Assembly: GCA_946894095.1 (NCBI GenBank)
Contig: OX335660.1
Location: 1,431,001 to 1,495,000, forward strand
Length of the DNA stretch: 64,000 nucleotides
DNA from: Incurvaria masculella
Lineage: Eukaryota; Arthropoda; Insecta; Lepidoptera; Incurvariidae
Direction: 5' to 3'
Shown here: in pieces, positions 16,425 to 58,917 of the stretch
Layout: each line of letters starts with the position of its first letter
How positions within the stretch are numbered: position 1 is the stretch's first letter
Made by a program: the position numbers and the translations under genes
The notes under the pieces: generated by a model
Seen by the model: only the letters and a program-made list of their open reading frames with translations
Told to the model about the DNA's origin: nothing
The model's database searches: none

Positions 16425-16455
16425 ATGCTCGAGTGTTTCGCAGATCCTTTGTAAG

Positions 16456-16758
16456 ATGACTCTTGATGAAATTGTCAAATTGTTGATCTCGGCCAAGGAA
16501 TACTCCGACCCTTCCGCCATCGACGATTACCTCGCAGATTTCAAAAATATTTTCGAAGCCCGCCAGCGTCCACAAATCGGTCCCAAAGCGTGGCGGCAAA
16601 TTGCGCTCTGCTTCAACAATGTCGGGTTCGCGTGCTACACTCTTTTTGTGGGTGCGAGTCACCAAAGTCCAAAATACAAACGCGATTTGGAGAAATGGTG
16701 CAAACTCCACTCGGAAATGACGGCTGATCTTTTGGAAGACATCACCCTTGCGGACTGA
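16456..16758 (+). CDS. Virus-like hypothetical protein, 100 aa
   Basis: First gene of the GC-rich segment, starting at an ATG 32 bases after the poly-C tract. It is short, predicted mostly helical and charged, with no membrane segment or recognised motif. A W-Q-I-A-L-C-F-N-N-V-G-F core and an acidic C-terminus are visible. It is followed after about 100 bases by another small same-strand gene, in the compact style of the segment. Function unknown. The reading frame is intact. Confidence 0.55.
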   Translation: MTLDEIVKLLISAKEYSDPSAIDDYLADFKNIFEARQRPQIGPKAWRQIALCFNNVGFACYTLFVGASHQSPKYKRDLEKWCKLHSEMTADLLEDITLAD

Positions 16759-16856
16759 TTACCGCTATTACGTAATTTGATGTTGCTTGGCCCAGGAAAA
16801 ATTTGATAAAAACGTTTCTTTTACAATTACTGGCCGTAAATAGTACATAAGGTGAA

Positions 16857-17141
16857 ATGGAGGACCCCCTGACCAAGGAATTCACAGAATACGTGCAGAA
16901 TCGAAAGCACTTGGAAGATAAATTCGGACCGATCGCTGGCTCAAAACCTACTACTGAATTTTTGAAGGTTTTCAATGAAATAATCTCGATTCTCTCCGAC
17001 GAGCGTTTTGCGTTGGAAGTTTTGGACAAGCAAATGGTTGTTAATTTCGCCGCTCTCGTCTGTCGCGCCAATTGTGACGGAACGGTGGCGGTGGCGGGGG
17101 CGACCGGGTCGCTGGTTAAAGAATCTCGTCTGAAGACATAG
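16857..17141 (+). CDS. Virus-like hypothetical protein, 94 aa
   Basis: A small same-strand ORF between 16456-16758 and the nuclease gene, starting at the ATG at 16857. The N-terminus is rich in charged helical residues; the C-terminus is an A/G/V-rich tail ending ESRLKT. No domain was recognised. It lies 75 bases before the nuclease start, so co-expression is plausible but not shown. It could be a remnant rather than a working gene. Confidence 0.5.
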   Translation: MEDPLTKEFTEYVQNRKHLEDKFGPIAGSKPTTEFLKVFNEIISILSDERFALEVLDKQMVVNFAALVCRANCDGTVAVAGATGSLVKESRLKT

Positions 17142-17215
17142 CTCCTCTCCGCCCTATCAAATCGCGCGCGGTCTCTACCGCCGGCCGGTCACAATAGCTC
17201 CGACGCCCGAGCAAG

Positions 17216-18404
17216 ATGGTCGTCCCATTTGGAAAATTGAACGTTTTCAATAACTTTGAAATATTTCCGCAGTACAAAAATCTTTTAAATAAACACGAGA
17301 ATTTGGAATTGGTAGAGCCCAAACACGTTTACCGCTACAAGACGGACGACGACGGCGACAGCGACTCGGACGGCGACACAAATACTGGGGGGGCGCCCCC
17401 ACAGAAAAAGGCACGCGGCCACACGAAACTACGCTACCTCAAGAGCTCCGTGACGGGTGTTTTAAAAAAAAATTTTCCCTTTGATGACATGATGGTGTCA
17501 AAACGGATCGCAACCGGAACGGGATTCAGCCGCAGTAAATATTACCGGTCGTGTGGGTTCAACAGCAACGGCCAAAGATTGAGCAGTGAACTGAGCGCTC
17601 AAAAAATCCGCCAAGTCTGGAAGAACCGCGGCGCACTGGGTACGGAGCTGCACGCGCGTATTGAAAAACACATTTTGGACGAGATTGTGACGAAAGCTTC
17701 CGCGAGTGTTTGTCCACCGGAGGCGGAGGCGACGCCGCGTTCGCCCTTCTCCGCCGCTCTTGTCAACAGAGCCCGCACCGGCGGCGGCGGCGGCGACGGG
17801 TCCACCACCGGAGCCTAAAGAGGCAGACGCAAGCGCGAAGGAAGCTGCCTGTGCCGCAACCCCCACGACTGAGGCGAGGATGTTGAAAATTCTGGCAGAA
17901 GCGAGTGACGACGTGATCTACGCGCTTGCACCGGGCGATGTTCTCGAAACAAAGCCGGCGGCGCTCCCGACCAACTTGACCGCGTCCGAGGTGCTCGCTC
18001 TCGAACCGCTGTTTTCGATGATGGCGGAAAACGGCTGGAGAATTTTCAAACCCGAATGCCGTATAATGGACAAGCGCCTGGACGCGGGGGGCACTATTGA
18101 TCTCTTGGTGGACGAAAACGGAAAAGCGGTGATTGTCGACTGGAAGAGGGCGGCGCTCTTGTACGACCTGTTTCGGCCCGATCCGGATAACATGTGCTCG
18201 GCCCCGTTCCAAAACTACCCAAATACTAATTTTTGGAAGTATTCCGCACAACTGACCATGTACTCGTTAATTTTAGAACGTTGCTACGACATTCAGACGG
18301 TGTCGATGCTGCTGGTCTCCATTGCAGACGATTTTCACGTCACTTGGCGTCCAGCCGCAATGATTCCCGAGCTCGTACCCATGTATAAAAAAAACTTTAA
18401 TTAA
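17216..18404 (+). pseudogene. RecB/Cas4-type PD-(D/E)XK nuclease, frameshifted
   Basis: Two overlapping frames make up one gene. The N-terminal frame (17216-17818) has YLKSSVTGVL and GTELHARIEKHI, typical of the helical start of RecB-family nucleases. The C-terminal frame (to 18404) carries the core: AGGTIDLLV (metal-binding Asp), VIVDWKR (the D-x-K signature) and SAQLTMYSLIL (the Q-x-x-x-Y motif). The frames meet in a low-complexity GC-rich linker around 17700-17815, where a single indel explains the break. Such enzymes process DNA ends in viruses and phages. The active-site residues survive although the frame does not. A sequencing error in the linker is an alternative. Confidence 0.75.
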
Positions 18405-18784
18405 ATGTGTATTCTTTAATAACTTTGAATAAACATGCACGCATGCTTGCTCGGCGCAGTTTCATTTATGCTTGTGTAGTGACAACAATATTTTTCCAAG
18501 TGACTGACGCCGTTCACTGTCCGTCCGCCAGCCAGCACCTGAAACGAAAGAAACAAAAATTGTAATATTTTCTCAATTAAATGATTTTTTTTCCACACAC
18601 CGCTTGTCGACTGCTCGAAGCCGACTATGCAAATTGCGCTCAGCGCGATCGCGCTCTACGGCAAATTATTTAATCTGTTTGGTAAAACAATTTGCTCATC
18701 TTGGATTAGTCGCCAACACCGTAAACGTGGCCCACCCATCCGCTTTAAAAAAAAGAGGTAACTCGTCGGATGCATCATAAGCAT
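18405..18784. other. Gap with one possible 44-aa basic ORF
   Basis: This is AT-rich relative to neighbouring viral genes. The only candidate is a tiny ORF at 18627-18761. No promoter or RNA gene was recognised. Confidence 0.4.
18627..18761 (+). CDS. Possible micro-ORF, 44 aa, basic C-terminus
   Basis: ATG at 18627 to TAA at 18759-18761. It encodes a hydrophobic N-terminal half followed by a strongly basic tail (RQHRKRG then RFKKKR). Small basic proteins are common in DNA viruses, but length alone gives little support. It stands just downstream of the convergent membrane-protein gene. Confidence 0.25.
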   Translation: MQIALSAIALYGKLFNLFGKTICSSWISRQHRKRGPPIRFKKKR

Positions 18785-20023
18785 TCACAAGTTAAAAAAA
18801 ATCCAAAGGTCGGCCCCCCCTGCCGTAATCTGGGCCGACGCCATCGCCTTCGGAACACACGCGTAAAATATTGTCGTCGTAAAGTTGCTCGGGGATGCGT
18901 AAAAGGGACAGTGCAAATTTTGTTCTCGAACCGCGTGATAATGTTTCCACTGGTGGTGGTGGTGCTGGTGGTCCTCCTGGGGCACGGATGCGCCACCGGC
19001 CCAGAAGACATCTCTAGTTACGATCGGTGCAGTCGATGCGTTTGCCTCGCGCACCAGACCGTACGCGTGCATCGCACTTAGCGTGCGAGCCGCATCGTAC
19101 GTAATATTATCGAACCGGGCGTTCGCTCCGCTTTGGCTTTCGGTCAAGTCGCGTTGCGAAGGGGCGACGGTCAGTTCCAAGGTCTGGCACAGAGCAACCT
19201 TGGCGGTCTCTCCCGCTCGTGCGACAAACAGATCGATGCCGTCGGCGACGACATTCCAATTTTCACTCGCTATCGCGGCCAAACGACCCGAAGGCCTCAT
19301 ATTGAACGTGGGCGGAGGTGCGAACGGCGCCTTGGGCTCCAGCCTTGCCAGAAACCGAAGAGCGTCGGCGGCGACGACGGAGGTGATGCGAGCATCGTTG
19401 CACCGGCCGAGGGCAAGAATTTCTCGAATGCGCGGCAGTAACTCGTCGCGGAGCGAGGGCATCTTTGCGCCCAAAGCCAGTAAATGTGCCAGCTCTAGAG
19501 GCGCAGCGGAGAGGCGGGAGTAGTCGGGGACCCGTTTGACCATGCCACTCGCCATTTCTGTAGGTGTAGAGAGCGCGCTTAGGCAATAAATTTCGCCCTG
19601 CGGTGCAATTCGTACCAATGCTTTAGTTTCGTGTTTGAACGTGGCCTCGAATTCCACGCCATCGGAGACGGAAGGGGCGGACGCTGGAAGCAGACGCGTA
19701 AAAGTGGCGTCGAATCGCACCCGCTTCACAGACTCGTCCCAGGCGTCGAAATAGGGTGCCGAGGCCGGTGATGGTTTGGGATAAATACTGAGCGTTTCGT
19801 ATGGCGGCGGGGGTGGCGGCGGCGGAGGAGTCGGAGGAGGCGGAGACGGCGGCGGAGGAACCGGAGGCGGCGAATCCACGACGACGTCCGCCGGGCATGA
19901 CGTTGCCGACCCCCGATTGGCGACTGGCGTTTTCGAAAGCATCGAAAACATTCCCAAAACAAGCGCCACGTTCAAAGCGACGATTATCGAGAAGAGAAAA
20001 ATTAGCACATACCCTAGTTTCAT
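18785..20023 (-). CDS. N-terminally anchored membrane protein, 412 aa
   Basis: Start taken at the ATG at 20023, since upstream in-frame codons include only a GTG at 20062. Residues about 4-30 form a hydrophobic segment (VLIFLFSIIVALNVALVLG), an uncleaved anchor or signal peptide. A proline run (about residues 55-78) leads into a large alanine-rich soluble domain with few cysteines, then a His-rich patch near the C-terminus. Topology and neighbours suggest a virion envelope protein. I considered per os infectivity factors but see no family signature. The frame is intact. It is the most downstream gene of a reverse-strand run of four membrane proteins. Confidence 0.65.
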   Translation of the reverse strand: MKLGYVLIFLFSIIVALNVALVLGMFSMLSKTPVANRGSATSCPADVVVDSPPPVPPPPSPPPPTPPPPPPPPPYETLSIYPKPSPASAPYFDAWDESVKRVRFDATFTRLLPASAPSVSDGVEFEATFKHETKALVRIAPQGEIYCLSALSTPTEMASGMVKRVPDYSRLSAAPLELAHLLALGAKMPSLRDELLPRIREILALGRCNDARITSVVAADALRFLARLEPKAPFAPPPTFNMRPSGRLAAIASENWNVVADGIDLFVARAGETAKVALCQTLELTVAPSQRDLTESQSGANARFDNITYDAARTLSAMHAYGLVREANASTAPIVTRDVFWAGGASVPQEDHQHHHHQWKHYHAVREQNLHCPFYASPSNFTTTIFYACVPKAMASAQITAGGADLWIFFNL

Positions 20024-20076
20024 GTCCCAACGCCTTACCGTAAAGCTGAGTAAAAAAAGCACTTTTCAAATACACT

Positions 20077-20169
20077 TTATTCGGTGGTGGTCAAGAGAAC
20101 ATCGAGGTTGAACACAATTATACTCGCAATCGAAAGCATCATCCCCAAAATTGTCCACCACCGCTTCAT
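20077..20169 (-). CDS. Micro-ORF, 30-aa single-pass membrane peptide
   Basis: ATG at 20169 to TAA at 20077-20079, starting MKRWWTILGMM. Basic/aromatic N-terminus, then one hydrophobic helix (about residues 6-22) and a short polar tail. It fits exactly in the 123-base space between two larger membrane-protein genes on the same strand. Position and topology support it; its size is a caution. Confidence 0.4.
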   Translation of the reverse strand: MKRWWTILGMMLSIASIIVFNLDVLLTTTE

Positions 20170-20185
20170 TTTGACGGTAAGCTAC

Positions 20186-21118
20186 TTAGACCTGTGGAAA
20201 ATGCCTTTCCGGCTCTTTTTCGCCCGCCCCTTTCATCAAGTCAACTCTGGTGTTGGTGTCTCTGAGCCACTCGTTGAACCACAACGGGATTATTTGTTGA
20301 TTTTGCAAGTCGACGGAAAAGAGATTGTACTTATTTTCGGTGGGGAATATTCGCGTTCGAGCGCTGTCCACACAGAGCGAAACCGCGCGTCTATGCGCGT
20401 ACGGAGTGCCGCAAGTGGGAATCTCTTTGAAACCCTTGAACACTACGTTGATCGGCACAAACACCACGACGGGTAACGTTCTTAGTTCGGTGGTGGCTAC
20501 TAAAAATTTCGACAATTTTCGGTGCAGCTCCCTCCAAACCGGGCGCCAATGGATGCGCGCGCCTCCCGCGATTCCGCCGATTGAGAGACGGCGCCCGACG
20601 AACCATCGATTGTGGCACACGGCCAGAAATAGTTGATCGCCGCCCCCTCCCCGCTTTTCATTATTTTTTGCTCTGATTTGTAAAATTTTGCACGAGACCG
20701 GTTCGTACAAGCACGCCACCGACTCGGGCGGCGATTTTGCGTCCGCGTAGCCGCCGTCCCACTCGGCCATCTCCGCATCGGACACTAGCTCCCGCGACAG
20801 CCTCTGGACGTTGGCGCTCTCGCAGCACCACCCGGCGCCGGGCTCGAATAGAATGTCCTCCTGGCCGCCCTCGACGCACGCCAAGCGGACGAGGGCCTCA
20901 GGATGGGGTAGCGCAGAGACGGTCGTCGTGGTGCCCGCGGCCACGACGCGTCCATCCCACAGTACTAGGCCGCCGGTAGTTTTGATAGTCTGCTCCTCGC
21001 GACGTTGCTTCTGGTGGTGGTGGCGGGAAGGCCACGCGGCGGCGGCCACGATGCACAGACCGCACACCAAAATGATGCCGGTTAGAAGAGGCCCTACGTA
21101 AAAGTGGCGGCGGGGCAT
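20186..21118 (-). CDS. Cysteine-rich N-anchored membrane protein, 310 aa
   Basis: ATG at 21118. A short basic head (MPRRH) is followed by a hydrophobic segment (about residues 8-28), then a long ectodomain with about nine cysteines, including a CC pair near residue 97 (GWCCES) and C-rich stretches at VACLYEPVSC and PTCGTPY. This pattern is typical of disulphide-bonded virion surface proteins. It lies between two micro-ORFs for membrane peptides, all reverse strand. No family was recognised. The frame is intact, with GC-rich codons like its neighbours. Confidence 0.65.
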   Translation of the reverse strand: MPRRHFYVGPLLTGIILVCGLCIVAAAAWPSRHHHQKQRREEQTIKTTGGLVLWDGRVVAAGTTTTVSALPHPEALVRLACVEGGQEDILFEPGAGWCCESANVQRLSRELVSDAEMAEWDGGYADAKSPPESVACLYEPVSCKILQIRAKNNEKRGGGGDQLFLAVCHNRWFVGRRLSIGGIAGGARIHWRPVWRELHRKLSKFLVATTELRTLPVVVFVPINVVFKGFKEIPTCGTPYAHRRAVSLCVDSARTRIFPTENKYNLFSVDLQNQQIIPLWFNEWLRDTNTRVDLMKGAGEKEPERHFPQV

Positions 21119-21141
21119 TTCTTATCACCAGGCGCATTGTC

Positions 21142-21300
21142 CTAGAGACCGATCGCGCGGTCCACCGCTCCTCCAAACAGGGCGCGCACACCCTCGCAAA
21201 CGACACCAATCGGCCCGGTTTTGTAGGTACTTTTGATGTAGCAAACGATTAATATGAGCGTCATCACTTGCAAAATTATACAAATAAGCGACCCGATCAT
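21142..21300 (-). CDS. 52-aa single-pass membrane protein
   Basis: ATG at 21300 to TAG at 21142-21144, starting MIGSLICIILQV. Residues about 4-23 are a continuous hydrophobic helix ending in CYIKSTYK; the C-terminal half is small and Gly/Ala-rich. It fits between the cysteine-rich membrane protein (23 bases downstream) and the divergent gene at 21321 (20 bases upstream). The tight fit and clear membrane helix support a real gene. Role unknown, probably envelope-associated. Confidence 0.55.
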   Translation of the reverse strand: MIGSLICIILQVMTLILIVCYIKSTYKTGPIGVVCEGVRALFGGAVDRAIGL

Positions 21301-21320
21301 CTTATTCAAAGTAAGACGAA

Positions 21321-21677
21321 ATGATTTTCCCGTGGGCCATCATTTGGCTGGCGTACGTCTTGTTTTACATTAAATTGTCAGACTGCGAGGGCCGCCTCGA
21401 CCGACCCGGCGACACGGCCGCATTGACCACGATAGCGGGATCGCTGCTCGAAGAGCGAAGGCTTCAAATGCGCACGGTTCAATACGAGCTGACGCCGCCC
21501 AGCGCGATCGGAACGAGCCGCGTGCTCTTCGTAGACGACCACCGACGACGACCAAAGCTACAATCGCAAGACGGCGGCGGCGGCGGCGCCCAGTCGCCTC
21601 CTCCGAGCTCCGCCGCCGCCGAAGTCGTCGCTCCCGCACTTGTGGTGTTTGAGACAATGTCGCTGCGCGAAGACTAA
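21321..21677 (+). CDS. N-anchored membrane protein, 118 aa
   Basis: ATG at 21321, only 20 bases from the divergent micro-gene at 21300, so the two likely share a promoter region. Residues about 3-19 (FPWAIIWLAYVLFYIKL) form a signal anchor. The remainder is polar and R/Q/P-rich with a Gly/Pro/Ala low-complexity segment near residues 85-105. No domain recognised. It starts a forward run of three small genes. Confidence 0.6.
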   Translation: MIFPWAIIWLAYVLFYIKLSDCEGRLDRPGDTAALTTIAGSLLEERRLQMRTVQYELTPPSAIGTSRVLFVDDHRRRPKLQSQDGGGGGAQSPPPSSAAAEVVAPALVVFETMSLRED

Positions 21678-21797
21678 TTGTATTCGCGCAAACTTGTTGA
21701 AATTTTAAAAAAGCTCTGTCCTCGCGGCATGAACGGTGGGCGGTAGGTGGGTGGTGCGCCGTGTTGTCCGCTGCGGACACGGAGGCGGCGTGGTAAG

Positions 21798-22202
21798 ATG
21801 GCCAAGTGCACCTTTCGCGCTCTTCTATCGCATCGCACGATGCGGCCCGTGCGCTTCGACAGTCACTTTTGCACGAGCGCATTGAAAATTTCACACTTGA
21901 GCGACCTCGCCTCTCTGTGGGAGTTCGAGTGCCTACCGTACGAGGATTTGCGCTCCGCCAGCGCCGTGATTATTCGGAAAAGGCGCGGTTTACCCTCCAT
22001 TGCCGAATTCGAGTTCCGCCTGGAGCGGGAGGCGACTGGCGAAACGGTTCATCTCGTGCCCGTGTTTAATCGCATGTGGCTGAGGGGCAACTCGTTGGAG
22101 ATTCGTGTAGATTTCGAGAGCAGCGGCCCGCTCGAGGAGGGGGCGGGGGAGGCGGCGGAGGCAATGGCCCTGCAATTTTCAATCGCGGAGCGCCGCGTGT
22201 GA
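21798..22202 (+). CDS. Virus-like hypothetical protein, 134 aa
   Basis: Start placed at the ATG at 21798 (MAKCTFRALL), because the upstream extension is R-rich and lacks a clear initiation context. It has no membrane segment. The sequence is mixed alpha/beta in character with several W/F/Y residues (LWEFECLPYEDL, EFEFRLERE), then an acidic Gly/Ala/Glu patch near the end. It stops 35 bases before the next small membrane gene. No family was recognised. Confidence 0.6.
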   Translation: MAKCTFRALLSHRTMRPVRFDSHFCTSALKISHLSDLASLWEFECLPYEDLRSASAVIIRKRRGLPSIAEFEFRLEREATGETVHLVPVFNRMWLRGNSLEIRVDFESSGPLEEGAGEAAEAMALQFSIAERRV

Positions 22203-22236
22203 GGTTATTGTGCGCGGTCTGAATTCCGGAAACCCC

Positions 22237-22404
22237 ATGGCGTTTCTAATCATTGGCGCAATCGCATTCGTGGCCCTGATGCTCTCCTGCTTGATTCTGT
22301 ACAACATTGGTCGGCGCGCGCAGAGGAGACGCGTACGGGGCACGCTTCTGACGCGGCCGCCACTCGACGGTACTGCTCCCCGTACGTCCTTTCCAAATCT
22401 ATAA
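22237..22404 (+). CDS. 55-aa single-pass membrane protein
   Basis: Start placed at the ATG at 22237 (MAFLIIGAIAFVALM), since the upstream in-frame codon is GTG. Residues about 2-22 form a transmembrane helix, then a highly basic stretch (GRRAQRRRVRG) and a short Thr/Pro tail. The positive-inside pattern suggests a cytoplasmic or virion-inside tail. It closes the membrane-protein cluster of 18785-22404. Confidence 0.6.
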   Translation: MAFLIIGAIAFVALMLSCLILYNIGRRAQRRRVRGTLLTRPPLDGTAPRTSFPNL

Positions 22405-22541
22405 AGTACGAATATTCCAAGAGGGCCGTCATACTACTATTTACATATTTACCCTAACAAATGGGGATACAGTTTCCCTTAAAAATATACAAAAATATAA
22501 TACATTGGTGAACGCACGCAACACGATCCAAACATTTTCCC

Positions 22542-23246
22542 TTAGAGACCTAAGGTTTTTGTACAGCGCGGAGTATGTGCGTACACGACTTGGTTGACAT
22601 GTTCGTTGGCGGCGCTGCTCTTGATCGACGCCTTCGCCCCGTGCTTGCGCAGGCTGAAAACGAGGAGACGCACCCGACTCGACCGGTCGGCCAAGTCGCG
22701 GCACCGCGTAGACAGCTGCGCCAGACTCCGGCCGTCCGTGCGGTCGAGGTGCTCCATCGCCAGAGCCTGGTGCTCGGCGGGGCACGCGCTCGCCTCTCGG
22801 CTGGCTTGTATCAACAGTTGGGCCAGGCTCTTGTAGGCCTCCCCGACCCGGTGATAAGACCCGGCCAACGCTGCCAGCCCGTTGGCGTTGAGGGCGTCGT
22901 CCTCGTGAGCGGCCAAATTCACGTGGATGTTACGGCTCGCCCGCTCCGCCGTGGCGTTTGTGGCGAACGCGTTCCGGGCCGCCCCCACCAATTCACTCAT
23001 GGCGTCCCCGAAGGCCTTCGCCGCGGCCAAGTAGGCCTCGACTTGGGGGAACGCGTCGAGGCCCGTCAGGTCGCAACTGAAGGCGTTCCTCGCGTGCTGC
23101 GCGGCGTCTATGGCGCTTCGCAGCGTCGCGGTTCGGTAGTCGGCTTCCTCCAACTTCTTTTCGGCCACCGAATGCGCCATGCCGTTCTTGACGCGCACCA
23201 ACACACTCAACGCCACCGCCGACATTTGGGAAAATACCGCCGACAT
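22542..23246 (-). CDS. Family A protein, copy 1 (intact, 234 aa)
   Basis: ATG at 23246 (MSAVFSQM). An alanine-rich, probably all-helical protein without membrane segments or recognised domain. Shared family landmarks are KKLEEADYRTATLRSAI, VEAYLAAAKAFGDAM, the AEHQALAM helix, DRSSRVRLLVFSL and a VNQVVYAHT C-terminus. A TATAAAA box lies 80 bases upstream. An inverted, near-identical copy is at 39152-39903, cut by a LINE, and a diverged broken paralogue is at 24381-25677. Expansion suggests a dosage or host-interaction role, but the function is unknown. Confidence 0.7.
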   Translation of the reverse strand: MSAVFSQMSAVALSVLVRVKNGMAHSVAEKKLEEADYRTATLRSAIDAAQHARNAFSCDLTGLDAFPQVEAYLAAAKAFGDAMSELVGAARNAFATNATAERASRNIHVNLAAHEDDALNANGLAALAGSYHRVGEAYKSLAQLLIQASREASACPAEHQALAMEHLDRTDGRSLAQLSTRCRDLADRSSRVRLLVFSLRKHGAKASIKSSAANEHVNQVVYAHTPRCTKTLGL

Positions 23247-23325
23247 CTTGGAAAATTAAATTGTTATACGCGCCTTCCCGAAACGTCCTGTGCGGAATGA
23301 ATGCCGTCGTCGGACGCTCCGTCGT

Positions 23326-23332
23326 TTTATAG
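23326..23332 (-). promoter_or_regulatory. TATA box of family A copy 1
   Basis: TATAAAA on the reverse strand, 80 bases before the ATG at 23246, inside a block conserved in the inverted copy at 39172. Conservation extends to about 23354, just upstream of the box, so the promoter was duplicated with the gene. Confidence 0.7.
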
Positions 23333-23354
23333 TGCCGGTCGTCGGGGAGTGGTT

Positions 23355-24380
23355 GGGTTAGCGTGCACAACACGTGTGTCGAGGGAAGGTGGCCGCCGGT
23401 GCCGAGGTAGACGACCGGTTGCTTCACGCGGCGTTTTAGGCTTCTGTTAATTATTTTTCAACCACAAGAAAAATGTATACGGGTTGTCGTTGTTCCATTG
23501 AATATAGAGATCGACATATTTTGTAACAAGCGTTGTCGTTTTAATTACCAACCAGCAAACCTTTACCAGCAAACCCTTACAAATATTAATCAAAGTAAAA
23601 TGGGTATATGTGTAGTAAAATTGGCTAATCTCGCAGCATTCTTACGGTTTGTAAAACGAACTTATAGTACGATTTACAAGTGGCTATGCAAACTTGCGAT
23701 TACTAAATGATTTGTCGCTCGCTGCCTTCCGGGGCAAAAGTCACCGGGGAAGTTTTTACTTTTTTTTTCATCAAACCCATTTCAGATTTAACACGCCCCC
23801 CCCCCCCTTTGAATTTGATAGCTGCCCCCCGTACAGCAATACGATTTAAATTTGACATCTGCCCCCCGTGCGAAAAAACTACCGAGCATGAGTTGCGAGC
23901 AGCTAAAATGAAATGCCACGAGAATTTGTCGTTATGACGGAGTTTTTTTGGAACTTTTTACCAAAGACCGTTGCCTTTGAAAGATTTCATTTTTACCAAA
24001 GACGAAAGAATTCAATGCCGCCTAGATGTATTTTGTGAGGAATTAAGCTTGTTTTTTTTCTCATTGTATAAAAAATACAATTGTCGTTTTAATTTCACCT
24101 TGCGCTCTTTTGCAACGGTGCCCATTTCACAGGTGTAAGCATGAAGAGGTGGTTTTCGCGCCAGGCGAGGATTTTACATCACGCCAAGGCCATTGCGCTG
24201 TTGCCCGACTTGAAGGCGTTAAAACATTTCTTATTAACAAAAGTCCCGGGCGACTGGGGACTTTTGTTAATATTAAGAAGTCGACGCGCGATGAAATTAT
24301 GATTATTTTTGAATTTAAACAATTTTTTATCGACATAAATTTATTATCAAATTTAAACAATATCACAGCAAAGTAGGGTT
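23355..24380. other. Lower-GC intergenic stretch with hairpin
   Basis: Composition drops compared with neighbouring viral genes. Two short C-runs with the word GCCCCCCGT occur near 23806-23870. Small open frames at 23600-23710 (36 aa) and 24110-24376 show no domain, and the latter contains the hairpin at 24232-24272. I do not support a gene here. It may be viral regulatory sequence or inserted host DNA. Confidence 0.45.
24232..24272. repeat. Perfect 16-bp stem hairpin, 9-base loop
   Basis: Arms at 24232-24247 and 24257-24272 are exact complements, built around TTAACAAAAGTCCC. The loop is GGGCGACTG. The surrounding DNA carries no supported gene. It could be an RNA hairpin or a cruciform-forming site. 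Confidence 0.85.
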
Positions 24381-25677: not shown

Positions 25678-25782
25678 GATGTGCCGTGCGCCGACGCTTA
25701 AGCTACAACGCGGACCGTGCGCGGACCGTGCGCCGACGCTGAAGCTACAACGCGGAATGAGAGCCGCGTTAAAATTCACTCG

Positions 25783-25789
25783 TTTTATA
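25783..25789 (-). promoter_or_regulatory. TATA box of broken family A paralogue
   Basis: TATAAAA on the reverse strand about 100 bases before the ATG at 25677. The leader holds two copies of a word containing GCCGACGCT(T/G)AAGCTACAAC (about 25692 and 25733). Spacing matches the other TATA-led genes in the segment. Confidence 0.55.
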
Positions 25790-49282: not shown

Positions 49283-49821
49283 ACGCAAATATTTTGACGC
49301 ATAGCCGGCCACACGGGCGCTGCGCCATCGCAGCGTTACTATGACGCAGTCTTAACGTTCCGTCGGCGCAGCAGTCTATAGCAAATCATGGATCGGAAAA
49401 GACGTCTAGCATTGCTCCTATTACTACGTCACCGCCGAAATCGACGCAAGATCACAAGACGGTACTGGATCAGTCCTTTCATTTCATTAAGAAATCGTGA
49501 TGGACTTTTTTTTTTAGAATATCGGGAGTTGCTATTAGACGAAAAGAAGTTTTATAATTTTTTTAGAATGAGTGTATCCAGCTTCGAATGTTTATTGAAG
49601 TCCTTAGAACCACACATACGAAAAAACTATACTAATATGAGGAATCCAGTGGAACCAGTAGAAATGCTGGGAATTACTTTAAGGTAACTATATAAATATA
49701 TTTAAGTAATAAAAATATAACAGTTTTTTTGGTTTGTTTAATTAGTAATCAGCTCACAAATAATCAGGAATTGTCATAATTTTAAATTTAGACATTATTT
49801 AAGAGAGATATCATCCAGTAA

Positions 49822-52800
49822 TTACAAATTAGAAAAATCGTATTCAGTTTCTTCACTTGCTTGAGATGTTTCTGGAGATGTAATTGAATTATTATAATCA
49901 GAAATGTATTTACTTTGAAAATTTGCTGTTTGATACCCATATGATGGTTGGTGAGACGTTGATGGGCCACTCACATATGATGATGTTTGTCCATACCGCA
50001 TTTCATCTATAATTTGTATAACTTTACTTTGGAAACGGAGAGTTTCTCGGTCGGAAAATTCTTGAATAGATGGCAATATAGCTCTGAAAAAGGACATATG
50101 GCGATTTTCCGGCTCCTTGAGAAGTTTTAGTCCTTCTCTTTCAAACTCATCCATTTGCATTGCCCTTTTGCGCGCGACTGGAACATAGCGCGGAGTGTTG
50201 TCTGTGATAATGTCATCATTTGTAGACGTAGATTCATTGTTGATTTCTCTAGGCGAGTCTAAGCTAGATTCGGTGGCATTTTGTTCCACTTTTCTCAAAA
50301 AAAGAAGTTGATTATATAAATGATACTTCTTCAGTTTCGTAGCGCCCGAGCCCGATTTTGATGCTTCTTTTAATTTTTTTGAATATCTGAAGTAATTATC
50401 TTTTACACTTCTCCATTTCTTTATTAAATCATTACCTGCAAAACCAATAGTAAACATGATTTAATAATTTATACATAGTGAATTACTCGATAAAATTTAA
50501 TGACATATTCAGATATCGTTAACAAACACTATGTGATCGACTCTGGAATCGTGAAAATATAACAGCTGTTACATACAAAAAGCAATACCTACTGAATCAA
50601 AATGTATGCAACAGCTGCTATTTTTTTCGCGATTCCAGAATTAATTGGTTACACAGAGAAAGTTATTTGCTATCGATGTCTGAATATGTCAGTATTTTTT
50701 TTCGGGTATCTATCTATCTCATAAATGCATATTATGAAAATGAAAATGAAAATGAAAAATGAAAATGAAAATGAAAATTCATTTTCGTTTCAGATACCTA
50801 GGAAGTGGAAATTCAATAACTGATTTACATTTCAAATTCAAACGGGGAAAATCTACTATTGCATATATGATACAAAGAGTTTGTCGTGCTATATGGACCA
50901 ATCTTCTTCGAGACAACATCCCTTTTTTTCCTCTGTGGGTAGTTGAAAAATATAGACGTGTTTTTGTACCTCAGCTGGATTATTATCAATATATATTAAT
51001 ATTGTAACGTTATTATATTAAATACTATTGTAAAGTGTTGTGGTACCTGCTATCTACATGCAGTAGTGTAGGCAGACCCTGCCAGCATAAATAACTCTTT
51101 CCAAACAAGGAAACAGAATTTCACATTCACAAAACCATTTTAAGTGCGTGTAGCCATGTCGAGGGTGATTGACGTAGCGACGGAAGTGGCAGAGCTGCAG
51201 ACAATGATGGAGGAGCGGATGAGTTCTTTCGAGGCGCAACTCAAGTCAGCTACCAGCAGCAAGCCGGCCGATCTCCCCACATTGGCGGCGGACTTCAATT
51301 TGTTCAGGCAGTTCGCCTGGAAGGCTCTGAGCGTGGTGCGCTCTCAGGTGGCAGGCCTTGCGGAAGTAGTGGACGCGCAAGAGATGAGGTCGCGGGCGAA
51401 AGTACTACTTATCCATGGTGTAGCCGAGGACAAGACTGATGACTTGACGCAGAAGGTGGTGGTGCTAGCGCGCAGTAAGATGGGGCTAGCAGACTTCAGT
51501 AGCGACTGTATTAAGCTGTGCCATCGTCTGGGAGTGAATTCTCGGGCTCCGACACGCCCTCGTGCAATTTTGGTCCGCTTCACACAGCTCAGCAGCCGTA
51601 CCGCGGTTTGGAAGGCGAAAACGTCACTAAAGGGCTCCGGCATTACAGTGTCCGAGTTCCTCACGCGGACGCGACACAACGTCTTCCTTGCGGCGCGGAA
51701 GCACTTCGGGATGGCGCACAGTTGGACACAAGAGGGTCGCATCGTCATCCAGTTGAAAGATGGAACCCGCATCAAAATCGTGACGGCTGCTGCGTTGAAG
51801 GTGCTGACCGACAAACACCCTGCGGTCTCAGGCGGTGCCGATGGTGTTGCTGATAGGCAGAAGCCCAGGTCCTCGGACCGTATCAACAAGGGGAAAGCTA
51901 AGTGAACTTCGGAGCTACTTCTGACGGACACAAGCACTATACCAAGCAAAATGATAAGCTTTCACAATTTTGCACATTGTTTCCAGATATCCAAACTGTG
52001 CTGAAATGTTTCTGGAAAGTCTGTATAGATAATATACTTGTTTTACTTTTATTATCACTCAAACTAATATTTTACTCAAGTACTCATATAGTCTGTGCTA
52101 CTCAGTCTTTGTCACAAATTGGTTCTTGTAACCACAGAGTGTATTCAATAGTTTGTGCTCAATAGTGTTTTTATTTTCTCAAGCGGAGAGAGAAAAGGCT
52201 CTCGCCGTTTATGCTTGTTCGGGCAACCACTTTACGGTCAATTAATTATTTTAGGCCATATACTTTTATTCTTTTTTTTTCCTTAAACTTATCAACCATT
52301 GTTTTGTATACTTTTGTGTATTTTAGGTCTCAGAAGTGGTGTTTTACTGGGCATACTATTTTCCTGTGTCTGTAAATTTAATTAGAGTAAATTTTTCTTT
52401 TTTTTTCCATTGCTTGTGAGATAATGGTTTTGTTTAGTCTATTGATTATTTCTGCAAGGTGTTTTACTATATGTTTTAAGTCTCATATTTGTTATCCTTT
52501 TCTTGTGCCTTTGCAGTTTGTTTATGTTTCCTGTATTATGTGTTTTTTTTTTCTTACTTTCCACAATGCTGGCGGGTGATGAGGTACTGCCTGCGGTTCG
52601 GCAGCTATATATATCTTTTATTGATTTAAATATATATATATATACATTTTTAATTATATTATAGTAAATATTTATTTATGTCCACAATATCTGACAATTC
52701 AGATAATTATTTTTCTATTACCTCTTCTGACGAGTTTTTCAGTGACAATACTTCTGACAGTGAATGTGTTCTTCCTATAGATGAACAACTTGACTTCACA

Positions 52801-55800
52801 TTTTCCAAATATCCCAAAAACTTCAACTTTGTGCATATCAATGCTCAAAGCATACCCTCCCACTACCCCGACCTTCTCAGGACATTTCCAAGTAAGCACA
52901 TTCATGCGTTATTTGTTTCGGAAACTTTTCTCAAGCCTACATTACCATCCACTTCTTTTTCACTTCCCGGGTTCCACCTGGTCCGTAATGACAGAACGGG
53001 GAAAGGTTGCGGTGGTGTTGCTATCTACCTCCGAAGCAATATTCCTTTTACGATAGTTGCCCAGTCTCCTACTCAGTATTCGGAATCACCCGAATACCTT
53101 TTCCTGGAAATCATCGTCACCTGCTTGATCAAAGATGATCACCGCGCTAGAAAACTTAAGTCCCTCGTGTCTTCAGTCAATATGAACATTCTTCCCCTGG
53201 ATGCGACACATCATTTTCCTAATTGTGAACCTTCTTTGCTTGATTTGATTATTACTTCTTCACCTAACCATGTAAGTGAACATGGTCAGCTCCCAGCGCC
53301 TGGTTTCTCCCATCATGACCTAATCTATCTATCCTATAAGGTCCGTCCTCCTAAAAACAGACGGAAGGTTCTCTTGCAACGTAACTTCAAGGACATCAAT
53401 CTCGAACGCTTAAGGGAGGACGCGCGTGGCTTGGATTGGTCTGTTATACTCAATTCCTCTTCCACGGATGAGATGGTCGAGGACTTCACCTCCAAACTCA
53501 CTGCACTCTTCGATGTTCACGCACCTCTTCGTCCCACACGAGTAAAACATTTTCCAGCTCCGTGGTTGACGGACAATATTCGGATAATGATGGTGAAAAG
53601 GGACAAAGCCAAAATTAAACTAAGACATACATCCACGGACGAAAATCGCACCAAGTACAAGCTGCTCAGGAATCGGTGTAACAGGATGTGTAGAGATGCC
53701 CAAAGACACCACATTCACAATACCCTCGAAAATTGCTCTCCCGTGAATGCTTGGAAGTTTCTTAAAACTCTTGGAGTCGGTAAGAAATCATCTTGTAGTA
53801 AAAATAACATCGATATCAACTCCCTTAATAGACATTTTTCCTCTCCTCCTGTCACCATCGATCAAGTGGTAAAGTCTCAAACTCTTTTTCAGCTTTCAGC
53901 TTTACCGACTCCGGAGCACAATTCACTCACTTTTCGCCCAGTCACTGACCGTGAAGTTAAGATGATCCTGAATTCCATTTCTACAAAAGCTGTTGGTGCT
54001 GACTGCATTAGCCTTGACATGCTGTTACCACTGCTGGATGAACTGTTACCAATAATAACTTATATTTTAAACCATTCCCTCTCCAGTGGATCTTTTCCAA
54101 GTACCTGGAAAAGGGCTTACGTTATTCCTCTCCCAAAAATTTCAAATCCCTCCTCTTTCAGCCAATATCGCCCTATTTCAATTTTACCGGTTTTGTCAAA
54201 AATCTTGGAACGCATTGTTCACCAGCAGTTGGCCGACTTTCTTACAGATAACCACATACTGAACCTAATGCAGTCAGGTTTCCGACCTGGTCACAGCACT
54301 GTCACTGCCCTTGTCAAAGTCACTGAAGATGTCCGTACAAATATGGAAAATAAGAATGTTACAGTTTTAACGTTGCTGGACTTCAGCAATGCTTTCAATA
54401 CAGTTGACTTTGACATTATGCTAGGTATTCTAAGGACACTTAACTTATCTCCGGTAGTGCTTGACTGGTTTGATTCATACCTTCGTGGTCGTCATCAGTG
54501 TATCAGGATTGACAATGAATATTCTGACTGGGCTGATTTGACTGCTGGCGTTCCACAAGGTGGCGTGTTATCTCCTTTGCTGTTTTCCATCTTTATAAAT
54601 CTGATCACGAATCTGCTTACTTCTCTCTACCACCTTTACGCCGATGACTTACAGTTGTATTTGCATTGCTCCTTAGATAACCTGGCAGATACCGTATCTG
54701 AAATGAACGTGAACCTGGAACATATACTTACTTGGACAAAATCATTTGGCCTGCTGGTAAATCCTACCAAATCACAAGCCATAATAATAGGCAGCCCTAG
54801 ACTTCTGTCGAAGGTTGATTACAGCACATTGCCAGCAGTGATCTACAATGGAGTTGTCATACCATACTCCAAAACAGTCAAGAATTTAGGAATTTTCATT
54901 GACGAAACTTTATCGTGGGTGCCCCAGGTAAACGAGGTCAGCAGAAAAATCTTTGCCGCCGCCCACTCCTTAAAGCGCTTGCAGAATTTCCTCCCAGTCC
55001 GAACCAAAATTACTTTGGTGCAAACTCTCCTCTTTCCGATTTTGGACTACGCAGATGTTTGCTACTTGGATCTAACTGAAGTTCTCCTAGACAAGCTGGA
55101 TCGTTTGCAGAATCTCTGCATTCGCTTCATATATGGTCTGCGTAAATATGACCATGTATCGCAGTACCGTCGAGAGCTTAAATGGCTACCCATCCGTTTC
55201 CGAAGGAACTGTCATTTACTAATTCTTCTTTACGGAATTCTAAATAACCCTAACTCTCCTGAATATCTTCGTTCCCGGTTTATGAACCTCTCTTCACACG
55301 GTCTCCCTTTGCGATCTAGCAATGACAGTATCCTTGCGATTCCTCGCCATACGACGTGTTTTTTCTCTAACTCCTTTACTGTTCATGCCGCACGTCTGTG
55401 GAACTCGTTGCCCATCACAGTCCGCTCCTGTCAAACTATCAGCTCTTTCAAACTTAAAGTCAAGGAGTTTTACTTAAATGAAATGTAAAGATGATAATAT
55501 GTTCTCACTGTATATATATATTTAATTTTATTGTCCTTCTAATAGTACTGATTTTAGAATCAATGGTAATAGTTATTATAGGTTTTTTTTCCCTGGTTTG
55601 TGGATATAATAATATGTATTAGTGTATTGTATCATATATATTAGTATATTCAATTATATGTATAAATATGTATATATTATGGTATATGTATGTTTATGGA
55701 GTTAATTTTTTTTTCTTTTCAAATTCTGGTGTGTCACCTACCTACAGATATTTCTATTGCCTTTCCTCATCACCCCAAGGGTTGACTGGAAGAAATCACT

Positions 55801-57126
55801 CTTAGTGATAAGTCCGCCTTTGTGCAGTATTGTTGTTTTGCTGTATGTTTTCTCTGAAATTGTATTTTTGTTATGCACAATAAAGAATTTATTCATTCAT
55901 TCATTCATCCCTGAACTGACAACTGAAAGTTTCCAAACAATAGCGAGGGGTTTTGATGTAAAGGCAAATTTTCCTCACTGTGTTGGTGCCATCGACGGCA
56001 AACACATCCGCGTGTGTAATCCTGCAAATAGTGGCTCACTTTTTTTTAATTATAAAGCCTTTTTTCCATTGTGTTGCTAGCTATTGTGGATTCAAATTAC
56101 AAATTCGTATTTGTCGACATCGGTGCATACGGAAAAGAATGCGATTCAACCATATTACAAAATTCTAAACTGTACGAGCTAATGATTAACAACAACTTAC
56201 CACTACCTCAACCTCAGCCACTCTCTGGTAGCAATATACCAACCCCGTATGTATTTGTGGGTGACGAAGCTTTTGGACTGAGCAAACATATTATGCGTCC
56301 ATATGGCGGTCAAAATCTCGACTTACAACAAAAGGTTTTCAATTACCGTCTAAGCAGAGTCAGAAGATATGTCGAATGCGCTTTTGGGATTATGGCTAAC
56401 AAATGGCGCATTTTTCACAGACCGATAGACGTGTCCTATGACTTCGCTACTGACATTATAAAAGCATGTTGTGTATTACACAATTTTGTCGCTGATCGAG
56501 ATGGTTTTAGACAAAGAGATAAATTTGCTATAAGTGTTGATGAATTTCTCCCAATACAACCCGCACATGAAGAACAGACAGCACCGAATGTCATAAGACA
56601 GCAATATGCGACCTATTTTATGACTAGAGGAACTCTGCCTTGGCAGCTAAATAAGGTATAATTGTATTATGAGGGTTTTCAAGATTTCTTGCACCGCCAA
56701 TGCCGCGATCAGTAAAAAAATAATATTTTATACCTACTCAGCGTAGTCTAGGTTAGTTTTGAGCTAAGTAATAAAATAGTACTCACGCTAATCTAGATTC
56801 CCTTAGTTTTAAAATTTTAGAGTGTCGAGATATTAATTTTGTACTGATCGCGGAATTGGCGGTGCAAGAAAATCTTGAAAGCCCTCTTAAATAAAAAAAA
56901 ACATAAATATCTGTACTGTGAACTCACCAACTTTGTTTTTTCGTTCAGCTGTGAAATTCTCGTAATCAGGAAATAAAACTTTTGATATGTCTTCCCAGGC
57001 TTTTGTTTTTAAATTTTTATTTTTAAAATCTACGTTTGACTTGTCCCATATAATTTCCCTTTCCTGTATCAATGTAATCAAGTAATCTATGTCAAGTTCT
57101 TCAATGGTATTCATTTTACCCTGCAA
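49822..57126 (-). CDS. Harbinger MADF-domain accessory protein, two exons
   Basis: Exon 1 is 57126-56928 and exon 2 is 50435-49822. Splice signals are G/GTGAGT at 56927 and TTTTGCAG at 50436. The join keeps frame and completes a MADF (Myb/SANT-like) DNA-binding domain: ELDIDYLITLIQE...W, KAWEDISKVL, then LIKKWRSVKDNYFR across the junction. Total about 270 aa. The rest is a linker and a C-terminal region with FFRAILPSI (BESS-like position), then an S/Q/Y-rich tail. Its 6.5-kb intron contains transposase exon 2 and the LINE, while its own exon 2 lies within the transposase intron. Likely binds element ends and assists the transposase. Intact. Confidence 0.88.
51156..51905 (+). CDS. LINE ORF1 protein, RNA-binding, 249 aa
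   Basis: Start at the ATG at 51156 (MSRVIDVATEV). A predicted coiled coil covers about residues 5-35 (ELQTMMEERMSSFEAQL). An RRM-like/Transposase_22-type region follows: KVLLIHGVAED, CHRLG, RPRAILVRF and a basic C-terminal domain (FLTRTRHNVFLAARKHFG). Such proteins coat LINE RNA and act as nucleic acid chaperones. Intact. Confidence 0.75.
   Translation: MSRVIDVATEVAELQTMMEERMSSFEAQLKSATSSKPADLPTLAADFNLFRQFAWKALSVVRSQVAGLAEVVDAQEMRSRAKVLLIHGVAEDKTDDLTQKVVVLARSKMGLADFSSDCIKLCHRLGVNSRAPTRPRAILVRFTQLSSRTAVWKAKTSLKGSGITVSEFLTRTRHNVFLAARKHFGMAHSWTQEGRIVIQLKDGTRIKIVTAAALKVLTDKHPAVSGGADGVADRQKPRSSDRINKGKAK
52678..55488 (+). CDS. LINE ORF2: partial endonuclease + reverse transcriptase, 936 aa
   Basis: The N-terminal APE-type endonuclease begins FNFVHINAQSI and SETFLKP and ends SLLDLIITS and FSHHDLI. 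The middle block expected between them, including the GDFN motif, is missing: the sequence jumps from LFLEIIV to RKLKSLVSSVNM near 53110-53160 without breaking frame. RT is complete (YRPISILPVLSKILER, QSGFRPGHSTVTAL, LLDFSNAFNTVD, GVPQGGVLSPLLF, YADDLQLYL) with a conserved C-terminus. The deletion should abolish endonuclease cutting in this copy. The frame is otherwise open. Confidence 0.9.
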   Translation: MSTISDNSDNYFSITSSDEFFSDNTSDSECVLPIDEQLDFTFSKYPKNFNFVHINAQSIPSHYPDLLRTFPSKHIHALFVSETFLKPTLPSTSFSLPGFHLVRNDRTGKGCGGVAIYLRSNIPFTIVAQSPTQYSESPEYLFLEIIVTCLIKDDHRARKLKSLVSSVNMNILPLDATHHFPNCEPSLLDLIITSSPNHVSEHGQLPAPGFSHHDLIYLSYKVRPPKNRRKVLLQRNFKDINLERLREDARGLDWSVILNSSSTDEMVEDFTSKLTALFDVHAPLRPTRVKHFPAPWLTDNIRIMMVKRDKAKIKLRHTSTDENRTKYKLLRNRCNRMCRDAQRHHIHNTLENCSPVNAWKFLKTLGVGKKSSCSKNNIDINSLNRHFSSPPVTIDQVVKSQTLFQLSALPTPEHNSLTFRPVTDREVKMILNSISTKAVGADCISLDMLLPLLDELLPIITYILNHSLSSGSFPSTWKRAYVIPLPKISNPSSFSQYRPISILPVLSKILERIVHQQLADFLTDNHILNLMQSGFRPGHSTVTALVKVTEDVRTNMENKNVTVLTLLDFSNAFNTVDFDIMLGILRTLNLSPVVLDWFDSYLRGRHQCIRIDNEYSDWADLTAGVPQGGVLSPLLFSIFINLITNLLTSLYHLYADDLQLYLHCSLDNLADTVSEMNVNLEHILTWTKSFGLLVNPTKSQAIIIGSPRLLSKVDYSTLPAVIYNGVVIPYSKTVKNLGIFIDETLSWVPQVNEVSRKIFAAAHSLKRLQNFLPVRTKITLVQTLLFPILDYADVCYLDLTEVLLDKLDRLQNLCIRFIYGLRKYDHVSQYRRELKWLPIRFRRNCHLLILLYGILNNPNSPEYLRSRFMNLSSHGLPLRSSNDSILAIPRHTTCFFSNSFTVHAARLWNSLPITVRSCQTISSFKLKVKEFYLNEM

Positions 57127-57332
57127 ATAAAACTAAATACAAAAACGTAAACTTCCGTGTATCCTCTCTGTCAACGCACAAGCAACTGAGCGCTGGCGCT
57201 CCGACGTCGCACGAGTACACCCCCTCTCGCTTCGTCTCGGGGGCTGCTGTCCGTCATGTGTGCGTTGCGACGACGCAACGCGCCGTGTGAACACCTTGGT
57301 TATTTGTATGTAAAACAACGCAAGGACAGCGC

Positions 57333-57375
57333 TGCGACGACGCAACGCAACGCAACGCGCCGTGTGGACTGGCTC
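57333..57375 (-). repeat. Harbinger right TIR
   Basis: Ends GTGTGGACTGGCTC, followed directly by the TAA target duplication. See the left TIR for the match. Confidence 0.95.
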
Positions 57376-57378
57376 TAA

Positions 57379-57787
57379 ACTGTACAGTAACAAAACAAAG
57401 TAACTAGTCACGCGTCGGTCGCGCCTTCGCCTCAACATAACTAGTCACGCGTCGGTCGCGCATTCACGTCACGTCGGACGGCGGCGAGGGAGCGAGTGCT
57501 ATAAAGCTAGTCCGCTCGCTCTAGGTGGGACCCAGTCGCAGCGCGCTCATCGTAGAGAACGTGTCGTGGAGCAGCATGCATCGTGGAGCAGCACGCGTCG
57601 TGGAGCAGCGCGCAATGGGGAGGGAGGAGCCCGCAGTGAGGAAAACGGGTTGCAGACACTTATACGCAATCGTTGCTCAAGCGGGCGAGAGAAACGAACG
57701 AAGCTTTACCGTTTGATGCACCGTTTGAACGTCCTTATAATAATGTCCTTTCCTCGCTCAGACGACACGAGGTCGTGAGGGTCCACA
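57379..57787. other. Viral-style upstream region with repeats and TATA box
   Basis: Two 24-base repeats (TAACTAGTCACGCG words at 57401 and 57438) precede a TATAAAG box. Three 17-base units starting TCGTGGAGCAGC follow at 57564, 57581 and 57598. Short frames here are mostly repeat translation. One of them continues in frame into the 57788 gene across a TGA at 57776, so the gene may once have been longer. Confidence 0.55.
57500..57506 (+). promoter_or_regulatory. TATA box upstream of the 57788 gene
   Basis: TATAAAG in a GC-rich context (GTGCTATAAAGCTAG). The distance to ATG 57788 is about 280 bases, longer than other leaders here, which fits loss of an original upstream start. Confidence 0.5.
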
Positions 57788-58426
57788 ATGATGTACGGGC
57801 CGCATGCGGCACGCGCCGCCGGCCTCCTGGAGAATTCAGACGGCCCGGACACGCCCGGCTGCAACTTTAAGGACATATTTCTGTTTTACGACGTACATCA
57901 TCAGCATATTTTGAATGTGCATGGGGTGCCTGATGTGGGATACGATGACAATTTTTTAAGCCACCGATTCCCGTTGACCGGAAAGAGGGTGCACTTGCTG
58001 TATGCCCACAATTTGCCCGAACCGGTGGAGCGTGGGCAACTTTATTCCGGGATATGGGCGAAAGCTGAGGGAGGCCGATCGCCGTTTGAAGTGCACGCAG
58101 CCAAGTCGGCGGTGGCGCAAGCCTGGCTGCAGAAGGCGAGAAACCTCTCGTGGCCCCTCAAATACCGGTGCTTTTACGACTTGGACGGCACACGGTGCAA
58201 CATTGGAACGGCCGCGGGGAACCGCAGGAACGCGCGTCTTCTTCTCCGCCATACAGACACGTGCCTCTCTGCTTTCCGTACGGGCGAGCGGATCGCGTTG
58301 CTGCGATGTAAAGCAAGGAGGTGGCGCGCCGGCTGCTGGGTCCCCGACTCGAAGGCGACCGAAGCTCTCCTTGAACGGTACCACGACCACGAGCTGTTTC
58401 AACCCTTGGCGTCCATGCATCGGTGA
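57788..58426 (+). CDS. GERIA-domain protein, short form, 212 aa
   Basis: ATG at 57788 (MMYGPHAARAAG). The whole protein corresponds to the C-terminal half of the gene at 26611-27966: KDIFLFY, LTGK, VAQAWLQKARN, YRCFYD.DGTRC, and FRTGERIALLR with RRWRA. Identity is moderate, so these are old paralogues, not a recent copy. An in-frame upstream region ends in TGA at 57776, suggesting a longer ancestor. No known domain. The paired RC motifs and basic residues could form a small metal- or nucleic-acid-binding fold, which is speculative. Confidence 0.65.
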   Translation: MMYGPHAARAAGLLENSDGPDTPGCNFKDIFLFYDVHHQHILNVHGVPDVGYDDNFLSHRFPLTGKRVHLLYAHNLPEPVERGQLYSGIWAKAEGGRSPFEVHAAKSAVAQAWLQKARNLSWPLKYRCFYDLDGTRCNIGTAAGNRRNARLLLRHTDTCLSAFRTGERIALLRCKARRWRAGCWVPDSKATEALLERYHDHELFQPLASMHR

Positions 58427-58430
58427 CATC

Positions 58431-58512
58431 CACCATCTCCTCCCCTCCACCATCTCCTCCCCTCCACCATCTCCTCCCCTCCACCATCTCCTCCCCTCCA
58501 CCATCTCCTCCT
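58431..58512 (+). repeat. 17-bp tandem array, five copies
   Basis: CACCATCTCCTCCCCTC starts at 58431, 58448, 58465, 58482 and 58499, directly after the GERIA short-form stop. Pyrimidine-rich strand. It lies between two viral genes and may have grown recently, since the units are identical. Confidence 0.95.
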
Positions 58513-58558
58513 TCGCCGCCACCGCCCAATATTTCGTCAGTCGATCTCCGGCCGCGCC

Positions 58559-58917
58559 ATGAATGCGTCGCGCGGCGCCAAAAAAGACACGCTGCTGCAC
58601 ACGCTCATCAGAAATCCTTTGTTCACTGGACGAAGAAGGGAAGGCGGACGGTGCGACAGTGCTTTGCGGTACACGGACGCGACGGTTGTGAAAATACTTT
58701 GTCTGAGACGTCCCGGAATTCTCCTCGGATCGGACGCGGCTCGCGCGCTTGGCCGCTTTGACCAGGACGACGACGACGACGATGACGATGAGGCGGAGAT
58801 GGACGCCTCCAACGAAAATGTATTTATACTCTACCAATTGATGGCGGAACCGGAGGAAATTATCCGGCCCGAGACGTGTTCGCGAAATCTCCTGCACGCC
58901 TTCCTCGTTTTGTTTGC
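58559..58917 (+). pseudogene. Virus-like protein truncated by a LINE
   Basis: ATG at 58559 (MNASRGAKKD). About 119 viral residues are visible: a basic N-terminus, ATVVKILCLRRPGILLG, a run of eight Asp, then ENVFILYQLMAEPEE. After LLHAFLV the frame enters LINE RT sequence (LFADDANALI), so the 3' part of the gene is lost and the predicted C-terminus is foreign. No domain recognised. Confidence 0.6.

Follow-up and report, generated by a model that had tools for sequence, protein, structure and literature searches.

Probable pieces of an endogenised virus with baculovirus-type late promoter motifs in the genome of the lepidopteran Incurvaria masculella

A stretch of 64,000 nucleotides (nt) from Incurvaria masculella (Lepidoptera; Incurvariidae), referred to here as the window (GenBank assembly GCA_946894095.1, contig OX335660.1, positions 1,431,001 to 1,495,000 of the forward strand), holds three GC-rich islands at 16425-30540 (island 1), 36810-39904 (island 2) and 57376-58916 (island 3), numbered within the window. 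The islands sum to ~18.8 kb and have GC contents of 0.559, 0.531 and 0.578, respectively, vs 0.334 in positions 1-16410. They had been described, from the letters alone, as fragments of an endogenised, unidentified large DNA virus embedded in AT-rich, transposon-filled DNA (hereafter the original prediction), and the surroundings are indeed AT-rich and crowded with transposons. The genes and upstream motifs described below indicate that the islands are probably pieces of an endogenised virus with early and late transcription of the Lefavirales type.

The island genes are intronless and dense on both strands, with 73% of island 1 covered by predicted genes. ATG-to-stop open reading frames (ORFs) of at least 200 aa, compared with 200 dinucleotide shuffles, numbered nine in island 1 (16411-30540; shuffle mean 0.49, maximum 3) and four in island 2 (mean 0.07, maximum 1), while the single one at 57150-58993 (mean 0.04, maximum 1) was equalled by some shuffles. 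Codon positions in the main frames mostly follow GC3 > GC1 > GC2 (GC content at third, first and second positions), as in real genes. The GC-rich, intronless genes on both strands of the original prediction are thus borne out, and so are its GC-rich repeats, since an intergenic repeat of 26-nt tandem units at 30383-30496 (plus strand) recurs in island 2 at 38738-38839 (minus strand), with about 70% identity between 30383-30483 and 38738-38839 (E 2.5e-8). A further 17-nt tandem repeat with 4.9 copies lies at 58429-58511, and scans of Rfam and for tRNA genes returned no match.

Island 1 opens with two orphan genes on the plus strand, both without Pfam match, of 100 aa (16456-16758, with GTAAG abutting the ATG) and 94 aa (16857-17141, with ATAAG 9 nt before the ATG). 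They are followed by a nuclease of the RecB/lambda-exonuclease type, split over two overlapping frames of the plus strand. Its N-terminal piece (17216-17818), showing GTELHARIE by eye, has no Pfam match alone, and its C-terminal piece (17691-18404), showing GTIDLL, VIVDWK and QLTMY by eye, matches the exonuclease family phrog_298 (4.2e-8) and, below the cut-off, Pfam PDDEXK_1 (0.0014); these strings we take to be the named RecB motifs. The nuclease piece had no match in the PDB. Next come orphans with an N-terminal transmembrane (TM)-like stretch, defined as 19 residues above 1.6 on the hydropathy scale, of 412 aa (18785-20023, minus strand, TATAA at -99, GTAAG at -14, no Pfam match), 310 aa (20186-21118, minus strand, ATAAG at -6) and 118 aa (21321-21677, plus strand, GTAAG at -9), then an orphan of 134 aa (21798-22202, plus strand, GTAAG abutting the ATG) and a weakly called TM-like protein of 55 aa (22237-22404, plus strand). 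Four of the 14 proteins tested are TM-like and lie at 18.8-22.4 kb, a fifth being the uncertain 42.6 kb ORF described below; the RecB-type nuclease and the clustered membrane proteins of the original prediction both hold up, the former by its phrog_298 match and motifs despite the split.

A lipase-like alpha/beta hydrolase of 369 aa is encoded at 28191-29300 (plus strand), with ATAAG abutting the ATG and the string GHSAG, presumably the lipase motif. With the scan started at the upstream ATG (28029), it matches Pfam PGAP1 (3.9e-7) and is the only island protein standing out above a curated cut-off; only it and the nuclease gave domain-model matches among the island proteins. It had been called LCAT-like, and the hydrolase assignment stands, but the LCAT model itself scored below its cut-off (E 0.041). 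Only weak hydrolase matches were found in the PDB (best E 0.013), and the single-sequence AlphaFold2 model had a pLDDT (predicted local distance difference test) of 34.7, too low to be of use. Orphans of 145 aa (26095-26532, plus strand, called by ORF and codon positions, without Pfam match) and 305 aa (29330-30247, plus strand, GTAAG at -8, without relative in viral contigs) complete the single genes of island 1.

Three paralogous families had been claimed to spread over separate pieces, which is the case for families A and C, family B being confined to island 2. Family A joins islands 1 and 2 and consists of copy 1 (22542-23246, minus strand, 234 aa, TATAA at -85 and -22), copy 3 (24937-25604, minus strand), broken over several frames, and copy 2 (39257-39904, plus strand), which belongs to a 755-nt segment that repeats 22599-23353 in inverted orientation at 98% identity. 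Family B is a tandem pair on the minus strand, with copy 1 (37149-37598, TATAA at -98) broken, its homology continuing in another frame at 36937-37365, and copy 2 (37788-38504, TATAA at -76) encoding 238 aa. Family C joins islands 1 and 3 through copy 1 (26611-27966, minus strand, 451 aa, TATAT at -98) and the shortened copy 2 (57788-58426, plus strand, 212 aa, TATAA at -52), with 26% identity (E 1.4e-6). Damage is thus seen in the nuclease, B copy 1, A copy 3 and C copy 2. Ratios of nonsynonymous to synonymous change (dN/dS) were 0.51 for A1/A2 on 13 changes, 0.26 and 0.87 for two pieces of A1/A3, 0.84 and 0.89 for family B, and 0.30 for family C with a dS of 2.1; as they are mixed among the paralogs, selection is not claimed. 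An AT-richer part of island 1 at 23354-24400, which begins at the end of the segment matched by the inverted copy, may be a small insertion.

A long interspersed nuclear element (LINE) at 39905-42566 (minus strand, reverse transcriptase RVT_1 2.7e-25, with 42566 taken from the original prediction) has its (TTTA)n tail within family A copy 2 and truncates that copy. Island 3 is bordered by a Harbinger-type DNA transposon (49240-57375, DDE_Tnp_4 1.6e-19) containing a nested LINE; its 48-nt ends are inverted repeats flanked on either side by TAA, which we take to be the target-site duplication (TSD) usual for such elements. At the left edge of island 1, the reading frame of a LINE with RVT_1 (1.4e-22) gives way to 14 consecutive C (16411-16424) and then to the viral DNA. 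The patterns tried turned up no 3' part of this LINE anywhere else in the window, and the element seems to be older target DNA whose 3' side was cut by the viral DNA. A long terminal repeat (LTR) retrotransposon at 30567-36432 (plus strand), between islands 1 and 2, has LTRs differing at 2/125 aligned bases and a TSD of TTTAC at 30562-30566 and 36433-36437, and is surrounded by AT-rich DNA next to island 1, outside the viral DNA. The claim that one virus was split by at least four retroelements and one DNA transposon stands for the LINE in A copy 2, but the LTR element lies outside viral DNA and the left LINE was probably there before.

As judged from sequence, apparently foreign genes adjoin host DNA and are broken up by transposons of the host, as in an endogenous viral element. 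The gene density, the paralogs shared between islands and the LINE tail truncating A copy 2 speak for a viral origin and for fragmentation by transposons, and a single integration is the likely source of all pieces. In the present host the viral pieces are a fossil.

The kind of virus is suggested by a motif upstream of the start codons. TAAG was present within 14 nt upstream in 8/19 hand-picked starts, which include 42902 outside the islands and leave out the duplicate start 39257 (expected 0.28, P 1.4e-10; P 6.8e-8 with an intergenic background), and it ranked first of all 256 tetramers in the three upstream window sizes tried. Only 19/433 island ATGs are preceded by TAAG (hypergeometric P 1.5e-7). 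Mechanically called ORFs of at least 90 aa gave 6/19 (P 2.4e-7 with the island and 2.2e-5 with the intergenic background), and control ORFs in the rest of the window, on the transposon side, gave 1/21 with 0.93 expected. When the 100 nt before each of 17 starts were enumerated as in a published study (PMC1550435), TAAG again ranked first, at 4.0-fold (9 vs 2.2), followed by ATAA (3.2) and TATA (2.6). The motif lies 4-14 nt before the ATG and is preceded by A or G in all eight cases (G in five, A in three), thus agreeing with the DTAAG late promoter that is typical of baculoviruses, not universal in Lefavirales. With TAAG, a signal that the original prediction had missed, its "unidentified" can be narrowed towards viruses with baculovirus-type late transcription, the viral origin being supported as above.

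The two upstream motifs divide the genes into classes. TATAW was found in 4/5 family genes vs 1/13 others (Fisher 0.008), and TAAG in 0/5 family genes vs 8/13 others (Fisher 0.036). The multigene families would have been transcribed from TATA promoters by the host RNA polymerase II, probably early and directed against the host, while the single genes (the lipase, the membrane proteins and others) would have been transcribed, probably late, from (A/G)TAAG start-site promoters by a virus-coded RNA polymerase. With TAAG nearly at the start codon, the late leaders would be only a few bases long. Such an arrangement, with two promoter classes like those of baculoviruses, is the simplest account of the islands; its early/late timing and viral polymerase are what we infer.

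Several observations weigh against this assignment. The idea of TAAG came from viewing upstream sequences and was then tested on nearly the same starts, a post-hoc choice that the ranking of 256 tetramers and the mechanical ORF set cure only partly. Shorter mechanical lists weaken the signal, to 4/16 at >=120 aa and 3/12 at >=150 aa, and the scarcity of TAAG within the islands (observed/expected 0.45) is unspecific, being shared by TAAC (0.44) and TAGC (0.33). TATA boxes, predicted at 70-106 bases before the starts, are not significant alone, as TATAW occurred 51-110 nt upstream in 5/18 starts, where the intergenic background predicts ~2.5 (P 0.09), and the TATA before 16456 lies across the junction, on the side of the LINE. 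A palindrome scan gave 14, 0 and 1 in islands 1, 2 and 3, a count made without control, so that hr-type repeats are not supported. No core gene (pif, polymerase or lef) appeared when 24 island ORFs were scanned with Pfam, as the original prediction had already noted. The RNA polymerase of Heliothis zea nudivirus 1 (HzNV-1) was reported not to recognise DTAAG (PMC3280521), so not every member of Lefavirales uses it, and TAAG is unmentioned in the main texts on Apis mellifera filamentous virus (AmFV; PMC4517127, PMC10655722) and the ant labial-gland viruses (LGDVs; PMC12548425).

Membership in Lefavirales and Naldaviricetes is defined by a core set of pif0/p74, pif1, pif2, pif3, pif5, DNA polymerase, p33, lef4, lef8 and lef9, of which none was found in the Pfam scans. 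Members also have a large circular dsDNA genome in an enveloped rod or filament; the present sequence consists only of fragments within a chromosome. The islands are accordingly Lefavirales-like in promoter use and are not filed as a member, because none of the core genes was seen in the fragment; core genes may still have lain elsewhere in the whole virus, because the islands total only ~18.8 kb. The lipase, the C-terminal frame of the nuclease and family C copy 1 found no relative among 5.8 billion proteins at E 0.01, 0.1 and 0.1, respectively, nor did the lipase in contigs of GTDB. Eight protein pieces, a set with family C copy 1 but without family A and the short genes, had no relative in the viral contigs of IMG/VR, and none of 10 proteins came near a cut-off in NCBIfam. 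The coverage of insect viruses in the collections searched is uncertain, and therefore the absence of relatives argues only weakly for a new lineage.

The islands resemble Autographa californica multiple nucleopolyhedrovirus (AcMNPV) in that TAAG is first among its upstream tetramers, at 4.0-fold, followed by TATA (2.3) and ATAA (1.9), with DTAAG enriched and CTAAG not (PMC1550435); in the islands the motif lies 4-14 nt before the ATG, and no baculovirus gene was found. In Microplitis demolitor bracovirus (MdBV) 64% of late genes carry such motifs (PMC4169385), and another paper mentions an earlier identification of the motif in HzNV-1 (PMC11728702).

By description, AmFV with its 50.8% GC, genes on both strands, ORFs over 65% of the genome and mostly orphan content is like the islands (PMC4517127), as are its many short tandem repeats and its gp122, with an endonuclease domain most like bacterial RecB (PMC10655722). 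Unlike them, its Abhydrolase_3 ORF belongs to another Pfam family than PGAP1, and its main texts leave TAAG unmentioned. The ant viruses CjLGDV and AgLGDV and their endogenous copies have dense genes, a GC content of 52% (given for CjLGDV) and inverted repeats >98% alike, paralleled here by 73% coding in island 1 and the 755-nt inverted copy at 98%, and the endogenous copies carry stops and transposons as well (PMC12548425). Those copies were detected via known genes including core genes, unlike the islands, and that paper mentions neither lipase nor nuclease; endogenous AmFV-like elements in ants have also been published (PMC10259472, PMC12548425). The island GC of 0.53-0.58 agrees with the near 50% of the AmFV/LGDV clade, weak evidence alone; genes exclusive to that clade are listed in PMC12548425. 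Of the viruses described so far, AmFV and the ant LGDVs come closest in GC, gene density and orphan content, AmFV also in its RecB-like domain, and the virus would have stood in or beside Lefavirales, perhaps near these two GC-rich groups.

Three other origins were considered. An endogenised large DNA virus of another group, whether a nucleocytoplasmic large DNA virus such as an asco- or iridovirus, a nimavirus or a herpes-like virus, with TAAG arising by chance or as another signal, is unlikely, though the most probable of the three: no core gene ties the islands to Lefavirales, lipases and PD-(D/E)XK nucleases are found in many large viruses, and TAAG right before the ATG resembles the poxvirus late start TAAAT in position. 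Against it stand the top rank of TAAG among 256 tetramers and the published test in which white spot syndrome virus (WSSV), human herpesvirus 1 (HHV1), vaccinia and African swine fever virus (ASFV) had other top or functional motifs (PMC1550435).

Bacterial or other non-viral DNA gained by horizontal transfer, or a cluster of fast-evolving host genes, would fit a lipase that matches general hydrolase models, yet this is improbable given that the lipase has no relative in the 5.8 billion proteins or GTDB contigs, that the nuclease piece and family C have none in the proteins, and that introns are not needed, both strands are packed and paralogs are shared. Most improbable is an error of assembly by which contigs from a viral infection were fused with host DNA; the run of 14 C at the left edge of island 1 and the sharp changes in GC would suit it, whereas the LINE tail interrupting a viral gene copy, the Harbinger-type element with TAA on both sides bordering island 3 and the several broken genes speak against it.

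If the preferred reading of Lefavirales-type transcription is taken further, the islands might represent a GC-rich virus family, in or beside Lefavirales, of which no earlier trace is known; with (A/G)TAAG right next to the start codon its late transcripts would have hardly any leader, and its genes seen here would have no known relatives, a suggestion that we regard as doubtful. Were it true, promoter grammar alone could place a viral fossil where protein homology cannot. Endogenous filamentous and nudivirus-like copies are already known in insects, but through conserved genes; here the genes are nearly uninformative, and the promoter signal yields a testable placement, offering a route to classify orphan viral fossils. 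The prediction is that the same genome or its relatives carry more such islands, in which core genes and starts preceded by TAAG would be present.

Further elements occupy the rest of the window. Directly right of island 3, a LINE piece on the plus strand (58917-59900) begins within its reverse transcriptase, recognised by eye from LFADD, presumably a motif of that enzyme; a search for TSDs at this LINE and at the one starting at 39905 gave none that was convincing. The label R4/Dong-like for a transposon here is likewise our assumption. At 60387-63131 follows a retroelement that has both an integrase and an RNase H domain (domain scan of 61782-63131). Left of the Harbinger-type element lies a piece of a Merlin/IS1595-like transposase (48312-49166, PF12762 6.3e-8, GC near 0.5). 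The stretch 42567-43440, of moderate GC, contains a TM-like ORF of 90 aa (42633-42902, minus strand, GC3 0.68) and an LTR-like stretch, and may be of viral or of retroelement origin. A repeated AT-rich element occurs at 9126-12595 and 45108-48078 (96-97% alike), and 175-bp tandem repeats lie at 8627-9323.

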